A model generated the notes under the pieces. That model was given only the letters and a program-made list of their open reading frames with translations, was not told the DNA's origin and did no database searches. Below, one piece after another: positions 16,671 to 22,331 of a stretch of DNA of 47,965 nt (positions are counted from its first letter, which is position 1; every line of letters starts with the position of its first letter). The stretch is taken from positions 1-47,965 of the forward strand of contig JAITTS010000060.1 in NCBI GenBank assembly GCA_031286995.1, in the 5' to 3' direction. A program made the position numbers and the translations under genes. Source of the DNA: Oscillospiraceae bacterium. GTDB taxonomy: Bacteria > Bacillota > Clostridia > Christensenellales > Aristaeellaceae.

Positions 16671-18482
16671 TCAGGCCAGGGTGCCGTCCTCCCGCAGGCG
16701 CTCAAGCAGGGCGCACACCACATCCGCGCGCTGAAAGGGGGTCATGATGTAAAACCCATCGGCGTGCGGGCGCACCCAGGCGGCTATTTCCGCGGCGATG
16801 GCCACGCCCGCGGCCGCAGCCTCATCCCGGCTCTGCCCCGCCTCAAAGTGGGCCAGGTACGCGTCGGGGATGCGGATGCCGGGCACCTCGTTGTGCATGT
16901 ACTGGGCGTTGCGCAGGCTGACCAGGGGCATGATGCCCGCCAGCACGAAGAGCCCCATGGCCCGCGCGGCATCCAGCGCGGATAGGGCTGCCGGGTCAAA
17001 CAGGGGCTGGGTCATCACAAAACGCGCGCCCTGGGCCTGTTTTTGCACCAGACGCTTCAGTTCCACCTGGGGCTGGGCCGCGCCGGGGTGAAACGCCACG
17101 CCCACGGTCAGCGGATCATCCGCGAACAGGTCGCGGTTCATCCGGCTGATGTGCCCGGCGAGCTGGGCGGATGTGAGGTTGAACACGCCATGCACGTGCC
17201 CCCGGTCGCTCTCGGGGATGGGGTCGCCTGTGACGGCCAGCACGGCCCGCAGGCCGGATGCGTGTGCGCCCAACAGATCCCCGTGCAGGGCGTTGATGTT
17301 GCGGTCGCGACAGCACAGGTGGGGGACGGTCTCCATGCCCAGGCTGTGCATCACCTGGGCCCCGCATAGCACGGAGCTCATGCGCGCCCGGGCCAGGGGC
17401 GAATCCGGCACGGTCAGGGCATCCACGCCCGCCACTTGCAGGCGGTAGGCGGCCTGCAGAAAACCGGATAGATCCCCGTGGCGCGGGGGCTCCAGCTCTG
17501 CCAGGGTGACGAACCGGCCCTGCGCCATGCCATCGGATAGGCGGCTGCGCGGGCTCTGCGCGGGCGCGGCGCGTGCGGGGGACGGCGCGGGCGCATGCGC
17601 GGTGCCGCTGTGCTCCGCGCAATCCGCGCCCGTCGCGGCCATGGCCTGCCCCAGGGCGCGGATGTGATCCGGCGTGGTGCCGCAGCAGCCGCCCAGCAGG
17701 CGCGCGCCCAGGGGCAGCGCCCGCACGAGGGTATCGGCAAAGTACCCGGGCGCGGCGGAAAAGCTGGCCCGATCCCCCTCGCCCCGAGGATAGCCGGCGT
17801 TGGGGAGCGCGGCCAGCGGCAGCCCCTCGCGCGCGGCGGCGGGCAGGGCGCGCAGCAGACTTACCAGGTGAGTGGGGCCCAGGCCGCAGTTGAGCCCGCA
17901 GATATCCACCGCCTTCTCCTTGCCAAGCTGGTTCAGCGCGCGGGCGACGGAGAGCCCGGCCCGGGTGTACCCATCCGCAGAGCAGGCGAACGTGGCGGCG
18001 ATAAACGCCCGCGGGCTGCTGCGGCGCAGAAACGCCGCGCAGGGCAGCAGGGGCTCCAGCTGGGCAAAGGTTTCAAACCAAAAAGCATCCGCGCCCTCGG
18101 CCAGGCAGCGCTCCAGCAGCCACAGGCGTTCATCCAGCGCTTCGGCAGGGTCGTCGTAGCCGGGCATGGGGCCTAGGGAGAGCGCGGCGACAGCCTGATC
18201 GCCCGCGGCGCGGCGGGCGATATCCAGCGCGCGCAAGGTCACAGCCAGCGCATCCTGCCGGGTGCCGCCCAGTGCGCGCGCGTTGGCCGCAAAGCTGTTG
18301 GTGCGCAGCACGCGCGCCCCCGCCTGCGCGTAGGCGCGGTGCGCGCGGTGCACCAGTTCCGGCTGGCGCAGGGTTGCCCACTCGCAGGGGCCGCCGCGCC
18401 AGCCCTGCTGGGCCAGGTAGGTGCCCATGGCGCCATCCAGCAGCAAGGGTTCGCCCTGGGCCAGCAGTGATTGTAAGCTCAA
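16671..18482 (-). CDS. Bifunctional homocysteine S-methyltransferase / methylenetetrahydrofolate reductase (YitJ-like)
   Basis: A 603-residue fusion. The N-terminal half (about 1-290) is a Zn-dependent homocysteine S-methyltransferase: LLLDGAMGTYLAQQGW at the start, and the three Zn-ligand Cys in GLNCGLGP and LGGCCGTTPDHIRAL. The C-terminal half (about 315-600) is a methylenetetrahydrofolate reductase barrel, with FVTLAELEPPRHGD, CCRDRN, AVLAVTGDP and FVMTQPLFDP. Together they reduce methylene-THF and methylate homocysteine to methionine, as in B. subtilis YitJ. A short Pro/Ala-rich linker joins them. The start is TTG at 18482 with GGGAGGA upstream. Its predicted leader is only about 35 bases, so no S-box riboswitch precedes it. 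Confidence 0.92.
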   Translation of the reverse strand: MSLQSLLAQGEPLLLDGAMGTYLAQQGWRGGPCEWATLRQPELVHRAHRAYAQAGARVLRTNSFAANARALGGTRQDALAVTLRALDIARRAAGDQAVAALSLGPMPGYDDPAEALDERLWLLERCLAEGADAFWFETFAQLEPLLPCAAFLRRSSPRAFIAATFACSADGYTRAGLSVARALNQLGKEKAVDICGLNCGLGPTHLVSLLRALPAAAREGLPLAALPNAGYPRGEGDRASFSAAPGYFADTLVRALPLGARLLGGCCGTTPDHIRALGQAMAATGADCAEHSGTAHAPAPSPARAAPAQSPRSRLSDGMAQGRFVTLAELEPPRHGDLSGFLQAAYRLQVAGVDALTVPDSPLARARMSSVLCGAQVMHSLGMETVPHLCCRDRNINALHGDLLGAHASGLRAVLAVTGDPIPESDRGHVHGVFNLTSAQLAGHISRMNRDLFADDPLTVGVAFHPGAAQPQVELKRLVQKQAQGARFVMTQPLFDPAALSALDAARAMGLFVLAGIMPLVSLRNAQYMHNEVPGIRIPDAYLAHFEAGQSRDEAAAAGVAIAAEIAAWVRPHADGFYIMTPFQRADVVCALLERLREDGTLA

Positions 18483-18935: not shown

Positions 18936-19010
18936 TTACATGGTTCGAAAGCTGGCACAGACCACAATGCACGCCAGCAACGCAAGCACCGCCAAGATTC
19001 TTTTTGTCAT
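18936..19010 (-). CDS. Predicted 24-residue hydrophobic peptide
   Basis: A 75-base frame starting with ATG at 19010 and ending with TAA encodes a Met-Thr-Lys-Arg start followed by one hydrophobic helix (ILAVLALLACIVVCASF) and a short RTM tail. AAAGGGG (19019-19025) lies 8 bases upstream. A TTGACA promoter with an AT-rich -10 box precedes it, and a hairpin with a T-run closes the unit. The length suits a single-pass membrane peptide such as a type I toxin or a small regulatory protein. The function is unknown. The two Cys sit inside the predicted helix. No homologue is recognised. Confidence 0.5.
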   Translation of the reverse strand: MTKRILAVLALLACIVVCASFRTM

Positions 19011-19040
19011 CACCGGCACCCCTTTGATATTTTTTTATCA

Positions 19041-19068
19041 TATATAGAATAGCATCATTTTCTGTCAA
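19041..19068 (-). promoter_or_regulatory. Predicted promoter of the 24-residue peptide gene
   Basis: Minus-strand TTGACA (19063-19068) with TATATA (19041-19046) 16 bases downstream. The predicted start of transcription leaves a leader of roughly 20-25 bases. Confidence 0.6.
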
Positions 19069-19222
19069 ATGCAAGGCTTTGGGAAAAGATGAAATGAAAA
19101 ATAAGAATTGCTCACGGGGCGGCATTCAGCACGAAAAAAGAGGTTATGCGGAATCTCGAACTTGTATAGAGTACTTATGTTGCATTTGCTTTTTCCCACG
19201 ATTGGTTTAAGAAAAAAAGGGA

Positions 19223-19251
19223 TTGACAGCACCCGCCGCGCGTGCTATCAT
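19223..19251 (+). promoter_or_regulatory. Predicted promoter of the ABC uptake operon
   Basis: TTGACA (19223-19228), a 17-base spacer and TATCAT (19246-19251). The start codon of the first gene is 221 bases further on, leaving a long leader. Confidence 0.75.
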
Positions 19252-19440
19252 AGGGGGCAGACGAGCACCCACCCCCCGGCGTATCCGGCCATGGCGCATG
19301 GTTGTCCTACAGGGCGGTTGGTAAACCGCTCCCCAGGGTGACAAGTGGGCCAGGCGGATGAGATGAGCGAAGACAAGACGAGCGTAGGCCGTGTATCACA
19401 GCCGACAGCCAGTCTGTCCGGCTGTTTTGTTTTAACGGGG
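19252..19440 (+). ncRNA. Structured 5' leader with attenuator, possible riboswitch
   Basis: The leader between promoter and gene contains several possible stems. One is GGGCGGTT with AACCGCTCC around 19313-19333. Another is a short CCAT/ATGG stem near 19290. A C-rich strand near 19266-19276 could pair with GGGTG or GTGGG near 19337-19349. It ends in a complete intrinsic terminator only about 40 bases before the gene. That layout is typical of a cis-regulatory RNA. I compared it by eye with the TPP, SAM, lysine, glycine, FMN, cobalamin, THF, ZTP, fluoride, guanidine-I and T-box motifs and found no match, so the class is unassigned. Confidence 0.45.
19399..19433 (+). terminator. Leader terminator (attenuator) before the ABC operon
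   Basis: CAGCCGACAG (19399-19408) pairs with CTGTCCGGCTG (19414-19424) with one bulged C, followed by TTTTGTTTT (19425-19433). It lies inside the leader, upstream of the start codon at 19473, so it must be read through for expression. Confidence 0.7.
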
Positions 19441-19472
19441 GCGAAGGTAGCCGAAATGAAGGAGGTATCCCC

Positions 19473-20459
19473 ATGAAGCGCGCCCTCTCCATGCTGCTGA
19501 CCCTGCTCTTAACCATCGGTCTGTTTTGCCTGCCCGCGCAGGCCGCCGCGCCTGCCCCGATCAAGGTGGGCATTCTGCAACTGATGGATCACCCCTCGCT
19601 GCAGATCATTGAGACCGCTATCCAGGATGAACTGAAAGCCCTGGGGCTGACAGATCGCATTGCGTTGACCTATGTCAACGCCCAGGGGGATTTCCCCAAC
19701 CTTCCGCTGCTGGCCAGCCAGCTGGTGGGCGAAGGCTGCACCTTGCTCATCCCCATCACCACACCCTGTGCCCAGGCGGCCGTCACCGCCGCCCAAGACG
19801 CGGGCAACGTGGATGTAATCTTCGCCGCCGTCACCGATCCCTACGCGGCCGCACTGTTGCCGCTGGAGCCGGATCCCGCGGTGCGCGTGGCGGGCGTGAG
19901 TGACGAGGTGGCTGTGGATCGCATTTTGGATATGGCGCAAAAGCTGACCCCCGGCTTTGACACCATCGGCCTGCTCTACAATGCCGGTGAGGCCAACTCT
20001 GTATCCGGTGTGGATGCCGCCAAGGCTTATGCCCAAAGCCACGGGCTGCAAGTGACAGAAGCCGTGGTATCCAGCACCGCGGAAGTGGCGCAGGCCGCGC
20101 AGTCCCTGGCGGGCAAGGCGGATATCTGCTTTACATCCAACGACAACACGGTGGCCTCCGCCATGCCGGTGTACGCCCAGATGGGGCTGGATAACAAGAT
20201 ACCCGTCTACGTGGGCGCGGATACCATGGTAGCGGATGGCGGCTTGGCGACCATCGGCATCAACTACACGGATCTGGGCAAAGCGGTGGCCGCCATGGTG
20301 CAAGAGTACCTGGATGGCGCGACCCCGGCGCAACTCGGCGTGCGCGTACTGCCCGGCGGTGTGCCCATTATCAATGTGGATGTCGCCGAGGCCCTGGGCA
20401 TCACCATCCCCGAGGATTTGCAGGGCGCGCAACTGCTGCACACCGGCGACGCGCTCTGA
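19473..20459 (+). CDS. ABC transporter substrate-binding protein (PF04392-type)
   Basis: A 328-residue exported binding protein of the ABC_sub_bind family (COG2984), found with permease and ATPase partners of COG4120 and COG1101. The signal peptide (KRALSMLLTLLLTIGLFCLP, cleavage near AQA) has a Cys but no proper lipobox, so the anchoring is unclear. The mature part shows the two-lobed family pattern: KVGILQLMDHPSLQIIETAI, LVGEGCTLLIPITTPCAQAA, GLLYNAGEANS, and ADICFTSNDNTVASAM near the ligand cleft. Members of this family bind Trp/Tyr or unidentified small ligands. The start ATG at 19473 has AAGGAGG upstream. Expression is probably set by the leader attenuator. Confidence 0.88.
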   Translation: MKRALSMLLTLLLTIGLFCLPAQAAAPAPIKVGILQLMDHPSLQIIETAIQDELKALGLTDRIALTYVNAQGDFPNLPLLASQLVGEGCTLLIPITTPCAQAAVTAAQDAGNVDVIFAAVTDPYAAALLPLEPDPAVRVAGVSDEVAVDRILDMAQKLTPGFDTIGLLYNAGEANSVSGVDAAKAYAQSHGLQVTEAVVSSTAEVAQAAQSLAGKADICFTSNDNTVASAMPVYAQMGLDNKIPVYVGADTMVADGGLATIGINYTDLGKAVAAMVQEYLDGATPAQLGVRVLPGGVPIINVDVAEALGITIPEDLQGAQLLHTGDAL

Positions 20460-20641: not shown

Positions 20642-21550
20642 ATGTCCGCGCGCGAGATCATCACCTTGCTGGAGCTGGGCCTGGCCTACGCCATCCTCTC
20701 CATGGGCGTGTTCGTCACCTTTCGGGTGCTGGATACGCCGGATCTGACCACCGAGGGCTCCTTCACCCTGGGCGCGGCGGTCAGTGCGGCGCTGGCCCTG
20801 GGCGGCCACCCGGCGCTCGGCCTGCTGCTTGGTTTTGCCGCCGGCGCGCTGGCCGGGCTGTGTACCGCGCTGCTGATGACCCGCGGGCGCGTGCAGCCCA
20901 TCCTCACCGGCATACTGGTGATGACAGGGCTGTACTCGGTCAACCTGTTTGTGATGGGCGGCAAGAGCAACCTGCCGCTGATGCGTGTGGATACCGTGTT
21001 TACACCCATGGAGGCGCTGGTGCCTGGCGGCTGGCACCGGGTGGCGCTGCTGGCCCTGCTGGTCTCGCTGCTGGGCGTGGGGCTGTGCGTGTTCTTCCGC
21101 AGCAGCCTGGGGCTTTCTGTGCGCGCCACGGGGGATAACGAGCGCATGGTGCGCGCATCCTCCATCAGCACAGATGTCACCAAGGCCGTGGCCCTGTGCC
21201 TGGCTAACGGGCTATGCGCGCTCTCCGGCGCGGTGGTGGCCCAGGCCCAGCAATTTACGGATATCAGCATGGGCATGGGCACGGTGCTGGTGGCCCTGGC
21301 ATCCCTGATACTGGGGGAGACGCTGCTGCGGGGCGGGGGCATCCCCCGGGGTATGCTCAGCGCCGTTGTCGGCTCTGTGTTGTACCGGGCCATCGTGGCC
21401 CTGGTGCTCAAGACCAGCATCCCCGCCTACGCGGTCAAACTGATGACCGCGCTGCTGGTGGCCGCGGCTGTGTTGCAGCCCACCCTGGCCCGCGCCCTCA
21501 CCCTGGCCCGGGCAAAGCGCAAGGAGGCGCGCCGCCATGCTGCGCATTGA
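20642..21550 (+). CDS. ABC transporter permease (COG4120 type)
   Basis: A 302-residue membrane protein with about eight hydrophobic helices, in the branched-chain permease-like superfamily. Family landmarks include GVFVTFRVLDTPDLTTEGSF near residues 21-40, a substrate-permease segment GLSVRATGDNERMVRASSIS (about 157-176) that corresponds to the coupling region touching the ATPase, and LANGLCALSGAVVAQ. It forms the channel for the substrate delivered by the binding protein at 19473. The ATG at 20642 has AGGAAG upstream. Its last 14 bases overlap the ATPase gene, so the two are translationally coupled. Confidence 0.9.
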   Translation: MSAREIITLLELGLAYAILSMGVFVTFRVLDTPDLTTEGSFTLGAAVSAALALGGHPALGLLLGFAAGALAGLCTALLMTRGRVQPILTGILVMTGLYSVNLFVMGGKSNLPLMRVDTVFTPMEALVPGGWHRVALLALLVSLLGVGLCVFFRSSLGLSVRATGDNERMVRASSISTDVTKAVALCLANGLCALSGAVVAQAQQFTDISMGMGTVLVALASLILGETLLRGGGIPRGMLSAVVGSVLYRAIVALVLKTSIPAYAVKLMTALLVAAAVLQPTLARALTLARAKRKEARRHAAH

Positions 21551-22331
21551 GGATGTTTGTAAAACCTTTTTGCCCGGCACCGTGCACGAGCGCCGGGCGC
21601 TGGCGCACCTATCCCTGCGCGTGGCCGCAGGAGATTTTGTCACCATCATCGGCGGCAACGGGGCGGGCAAATCCACCCTGTTCAACCTGGTGGCCGGGGT
21701 GTTTTACCCGGATACGGGGCGGGTGCTGCTGGGCGGGCAGGATATCACCTACTGGCCGGAGCACCGCCGCGCGCACCAGATCGGCCGCCTGATGCAAGAC
21801 CCCATGGCGGGCACCGCGCCGGGCATGACCATTGAGGAAAACATCACCCTGGCCATGCTGCGGGGCACGCGCCGGGTGTTTGGCCTGAGCCGGCGCGAGC
21901 GCGAGCGGGCGCGTACCCTGCTGGCCCGGCTGGATATGGGGCTGGAGAACCGCCTGCACACCCGCGTGGGCCTGCTATCCGGCGGCGAACGCCAGGCCGT
22001 ATCCTTGGTGATGAGCACCGTGGTGCCGCCCCGCTTGCTGCTGCTGGATGAGCACACCGCCGCGCTCGATCCCCAGGCCGCGCGCAAGGTGCTGCGCATC
22101 ACCGATGCCGTGGTGCGCGGGGGCGAGACGCCCATCACCACCCTGATGATCACCCACAACATCGCTACCGCCCTGGAGATGGGCAATCGCACCCTGATGC
22201 TGGATGAGGGCGAGATCGTGCTGGATCTGGATGCGCCCGCCCGCCAAGGCTTGACCGTGGAGGCGCTGCTGGCCCTGTTTGCCGAGAGACGCAAAAAAAA
22301 GTTTGATGTGGACCGGGTGCTGCTCTCTTAG
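21537..22331 (+). CDS. ABC transporter ATP-binding protein (COG1101 type)
   Basis: A 264-residue ATPase that powers the permease encoded just upstream. Walker A is GGNGAGKST (about 38-46). The Q-loop region is in IGRLMQDPMAGTAPGMT, the signature is LSGGERQAVSL, Walker B is LLLLDEHTAALDP (with H after E, as is usual in this subfamily) and the switch His is in MITHNIATALEMG. The domain is complete. AAGGAGG lies inside the end of the permease gene, and the ATG at 21537 overlaps the permease frame by 14 bases. It ends the operon; a strong hairpin follows at 22405-22433. Confidence 0.92.
   Translation: MLRIEDVCKTFLPGTVHERRALAHLSLRVAAGDFVTIIGGNGAGKSTLFNLVAGVFYPDTGRVLLGGQDITYWPEHRRAHQIGRLMQDPMAGTAPGMTIEENITLAMLRGTRRVFGLSRRERERARTLLARLDMGLENRLHTRVGLLSGGERQAVSLVMSTVVPPRLLLLDEHTAALDPQAARKVLRITDAVVRGGETPITTLMITHNIATALEMGNRTLMLDEGEIVLDLDAPARQGLTVEALLALFAERRKKKFDVDRVLLS

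Follow-up and report, generated by a model that had tools for sequence, protein, structure and literature searches.

A probable TRAP-dependent transcription attenuator in the leader of a predicted tryptophan ABC importer operon

TRAP (MtrB) is the textbook RNA-binding attenuation protein and has been studied almost wholly in Bacillus, where tryptophan synthesis is the process under control. The B. subtilis protein binds 11 GAG or UAG repeats with spacers of 2 or 3 nt (PMC3913778), the TRAP sites of that species contain 9-11 repeats each (PMC4347634), and at least 7 repeats are stated for stable binding by B. subtilis TRAP (PMC4027176). In the trp leader of that organism the antiterminator extends from +60 to +111 and the terminator from +108 to +133 (PMC4027176). 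The leader described here lies in a 47,965-nucleotide stretch of DNA, called the window, and it is very probably a TRAP-dependent transcription attenuator located before a tryptophan ABC importer.

A first-pass annotation of this DNA described a leader RNA carrying its own terminator in front of an ABC uptake operon, and listed a consensus promoter, a structured stretch and a complete intrinsic terminator. This layout was confirmed, as the promoter and the large 5' hairpin are well supported (Table 1) and none of 200 shuffles folded as well as the terminator hairpin. Promoter-like sites occur three times in 19000-19500, against 0.4 expected in shuffles. The transcript would start at about 19258, and a structured leader of approximately 175 nt, which ends in the intrinsic terminator, separates the promoter from the operon. 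The folding excess of the whole leader is modest (z -1.96). The ATG at 19473, preceded by the Shine-Dalgarno (SD) sequence AAGGAGG, is the first start codon in the operon. The interval from the terminator to this ATG yielded no promoter-like site, so expression of the operon probably needs read-through. Rfam produced zero matches on the leader at gathering scores and, at E <= 10, a 14-bit nematode snoRNA as the sole match. The first-pass annotation had recognized no core motif of the common classes by eye. The identity of the leader as 6S RNA was also considered and rejected, and a separate 6S gene sits on another contig. The divergent neighbor on the minus strand (16671-18482), approximately 740 bases from the leader promoter, encodes a fusion of homocysteine S-methyltransferase and methylenetetrahydrofolate reductase.

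Table 1. Features of the leader and the operon, in window coordinates.
Feature	Coordinates	Strand	Evidence
Promoter TTGACA-17-TATCAT, TG before the -10 (extended -10)	19223..19251	+	11/12 consensus matches
Two further NAG triplets, CAG-AC-GAG, at the 5' end of the leader	19258..19265	+	sequence; role in TRAP binding uncertain
Large 5' stem-loop with imperfect pairing, its end at the first NAG triplet	19282..19360	+	-42.1 kcal/mol, z -3.64, 0/200 shuffles
Predicted TRAP site of six NAG triplets (GAG, GAG, AAG, AAG, GAG, UAG), every spacer exactly 2 nt	19360..19387	+	shuffles, genome scan
Predicted antiterminator hairpin, 5' strand holding NAG repeats 4-6	19372..19418	+	-18.5 kcal/mol, z -3.89, 0/200 shuffles
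Intrinsic terminator, stem 19398-19425 then U-rich tail	19398..19433	+	-15.4 kcal/mol (19395-19434); z -3.57 (19399-19430)
Substrate-binding protein (PF04392), probable tryptophan-binding TrpX	19473..20459	+	domain match, relatives, tree
ABC permease (PF02653), TrpY-like	20642..21550	+	domain match
ABC ATPase (PF00005), TrpZ-like	21537..22331	+	domain match

The first-pass annotation did not mention an array of NAG triplets that repeats every 5 nt directly ahead of the terminator, with the RNA sequence GAG-AU-GAG-CG-AAG-AC-AAG-AC-GAG-CG-UAG. This array is non-random: in 5000 dinucleotide-shuffled versions of the leader the chain averaged 1.9 repeats and never reached six. Throughout the genome, at least five such repeats (with a first base other than C) occur at two places, the array itself and C145:5519-5546. 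The second match, a GAGGT tandem run at a contig end, is probably simple sequence. HutP was considered as the binder of the array; its NAG motifs have longer spacers, and the 2-nt spacing here fits TRAP. The leader has six strict repeats, two of which are AAG, and two separate triplets at 19258-19265, and the six strict repeats are few in comparison with the Bacillus sites (9-11, with at least 7 for stable binding).

The same genome has a TRAP gene on contig C62 (PF02081, E 2e-39), and its product exceeds the NCBIfam MtrB equivalog cut-off. The protein is close to the solved TRAPs and contains the EKLD and SA-K-RG segments, which we take to hold the RNA-contacting residues Lys37, Lys56 and Arg58. 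Among the 308 genomes surveyed in the same family TRAP was found in ten, which belong to three genera. A phosphofructokinase gene adjoins the TRAP gene in all ten, which indicates that the TRAP gene is not a stray contaminant. The only trp gene looked for was trpE, the first of the tryptophan-synthesis genes, which was detected in none of the ten TRAP genomes and in all 14 control genomes.

The occurrence of arrays matches that of TRAP across genomes. The other nine TRAP genomes all contain NAG arrays by the start of the orthologous operon, with strict chains of five repeats in five of these operons, seven in two and three in one, which is longer if other spacers are allowed; four strict GAG repeats were counted by eye at a truncated locus. 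In five of these genomes (G087, G112, G154, G207 and G217), the operon array is the only strict five-repeat match in the genome. The longest strict chain was two in the tryptophan-clade operons of genomes lacking TRAP, taken together with the operon of one genome from another family (G036), outside the TRAP survey. In addition, no NAG array was found at the non-tryptophan binding-protein paralogues of the TRAP genomes. These cases are not independent because the genomes are related, and the pattern is carried by three genera.

In the two other TRAP genera, the tryptophan-clade operon is preceded by a T-box and then by an array adjoining the SD sequence, for example AAG-AC-GAG-AU-GAG-AC-GAG-AC-GAG-A-AAG. 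The UGG specifier of these T-boxes was read by eye from the aligned context GAA-UGG-A. Nine loci combine a tryptophan T-box and a TRAP-type array in one leader, and their arrays lie in the last 30-75 bases before the start codon of the binding protein. Such a leader may act as a dual sensor, of tRNA charging and of free tryptophan. Among open-access papers, none was found that describes a leader with both a T-box and a TRAP site. A different, short leader was observed approximately 60 bases before the start codon of six non-tryptophan paralogues, consisting of UAG, a small hairpin and AGUAG before the SD sequence, and it occurs both with and without TRAP.

The first-pass annotation considered the ligands of this transporter family to be uncertain. 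The sequence relationships of the binding protein now indicate that the ligand is most likely tryptophan. The protein is related to the solved proteins 3lft and 6hni, and its only NCBIfam match is NF041285 (TrpX), at 263 bits and below the cut-off of 390. This cut-off does not settle the identity as TrpX, since L079, a relative that itself has a UGG T-box, reaches 248. In a tree of 43 relatives, the window protein was placed inside a clade (support 100/98) whose T-boxes all read UGG, and the T-boxes with UUC (Phe) and UAC (Tyr) specifiers, read by eye, were all in the other clade. The exact place of the window protein within the tryptophan clade is unsure because of its long branch. Ten PF04392 paralogue operons contain T-boxes with UUC or UAC specifiers (by eye), which would assign aromatic amino acids to those unassigned transporters.

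The folds predicted for the leader are mutually exclusive, as the antiterminator and the terminator have 21 bases (19398-19418) in common. In the free leader, repeats 4-6 are predicted to pair with the upstream portion of the terminator and so to form the antiterminator, which has the lower energy (-18.5 kcal/mol, against -15.4 for the terminator). The antiterminator is completed seven bases earlier than the terminator stem, which is followed by the U-rich tail UUUUGUUUU. When 19360-19387 was constrained to be unpaired, the predicted fold switched to the terminator. Thermodynamic modelling thus places the NAG triplets in an antiterminator that would exclude the terminator. The stem-loop at 19282-19360 is possibly the counterpart of the 5' stem-loop in the B. 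subtilis trp leader, and it may help TRAP to bind. A four-way-junction fold of 19258-19350 (-33.9 kcal/mol) was rejected because it is overtaken by the long hairpin once 19351-19362 is transcribed.

We infer from this arrangement a switch in which TRAP binds the array. When tryptophan is plentiful, tryptophan-loaded TRAP would bind the triplets as they are released by RNA polymerase, the antiterminator would be blocked, the terminator would form and transcription would end before reaching the importer operon. Under tryptophan scarcity, TRAP would be off, the antiterminator would sequester the 5' terminator arm and RNA polymerase would read through into the operon. High tryptophan would thus stop import and low tryptophan would release it. 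The trp leader of B. subtilis follows the same logic.

Four other explanations were considered. First, TRAP may bind the array but act mainly in another way than by excluding the antiterminator, for example through direct induction of termination or a block of translation. The arrays of the relatives adjoin the SD sequence, and in B. subtilis termination can be induced by TRAP in the absence of the attenuator (PMC3913778). However, at least 85 nt separate the window array from the start codon downstream, and the array lies within a significant antiterminator sharing bases with the terminator; we consider such an action unlikely. Secondly, the leader may belong to a new riboswitch class, in which the hairpin at 19282-19360 would be an aptamer for the transported ligand and would steer the terminator. 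This hairpin is strongly structured (z -3.64) and does not match any Rfam family, but a single-sequence covariance model of it found only itself among the 308 genomes of the family. There is thus no sign of a conserved aptamer, as the hairpin is absent from the other 307. DNA comparison of the leader with 200 genomes of the family identified just short chance matches and no homologue, and a scan of GTDB contigs using the binding protein yielded none that was confirmed. No relative sharing this leader was found by the DNA, hairpin-model or GTDB contig searches. Given the NAG array and the TRAP gene, no aptamer is needed to account for the layout, and the suggestion in the first-pass annotation of a new or strongly diverged ligand-sensing riboswitch is accordingly improbable, somewhat more so than another mode of TRAP action.

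Third, in leader-peptide attenuation the fold would be decided by a ribosome on one of two frames, 19298-19324 (MVVLQGGW) or 19363-19476. The former ends in a Trp codon, and the latter is preceded by AGGCGG and runs into the beginning of the binding-protein gene. However, the former contains a single Trp codon and has no clear SD sequence, both frames are short enough for chance and neither has support from relatives, which makes this explanation very unlikely. The frame at 19363-19476 has 37 codons and spans the NAG array and the terminator, and it may be a chance occurrence. Lastly, a strongly diverged T-box is scarcely credible: most orthologous operons in the family have T-boxes, with UGG in the tryptophan clade, but RF00230 had no match at E <= 10 in 19150-19500 while six T-boxes were found elsewhere in the genome, and no recognizable T-box sequence precedes the terminator. 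Of the three options named in the first-pass annotation, the protein-dependent attenuator is thus retained, the riboswitch is disfavored by its unique hairpin and the T-box by the absence of a model match.

The mechanism proposed here, TRAP-dependent attenuation, is an established one, and what is new is the kind of target and the setting. In these genomes, none of which has a detectable trpE, the evident target of TRAP is an importer, and there are two layouts, the predicted transcription attenuator of the window and the SD-adjoining sites behind a tryptophan T-box in the relatives. One history that would account for this, and which we regard as evenly balanced between right and wrong, is that a lineage of probable tryptophan auxotrophs kept TRAP only for tryptophan import. 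TRAP control would then have been stacked on the tryptophan T-box in two genera, and in the genus of the window the T-box would have given way to a short-array TRAP attenuator aided by the 5' stem-loop. If this is true, the stacked mRNA senses tRNA charging at the level of transcription and free tryptophan at the level of translation. Two questions become testable in this system: the minimum number of repeats for a natural TRAP site, and how the control of one gene shifts between tRNA sensing and protein-mediated sensing of an amino acid.

The importer of the window and trpP (yhaG) of B. subtilis, which we take to belong to different transporter families, can be compared by their control. Like the predicted arrangement here, trpP is a tryptophan transporter under TRAP control (PMC4347634). 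In trpP, TRAP blocks the ribosome binding site, whereas the window contains a predicted attenuator, and the SD-adjoining sites of the related genomes match trpP more closely than the window does. The trpXYZ operon of Streptococcus suis, an organism auxotrophic for tryptophan, encodes an ABC importer of homologous type and also has an attenuator leader (PMC9382623). In contrast to the window, the sensor there is uncharged tRNA-Trp, read through a tryptophan T-box, and that paper makes no mention of TRAP. A close likeness in layout is to the trpEDCFBA leader of B. subtilis, where an antiterminator and a terminator also overlap, the 5' strand of the antiterminator holds GAG/UAG-type triplets with short spacers, and a 5' stem-loop lies upstream (PMC3913778, PMC4027176). 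The window differs in having six strict triplets, two of them AAG, instead of 11, in the lack of a detectable trpE in its genome, and in its target, which is an importer operon here and a synthesis operon in B. subtilis.
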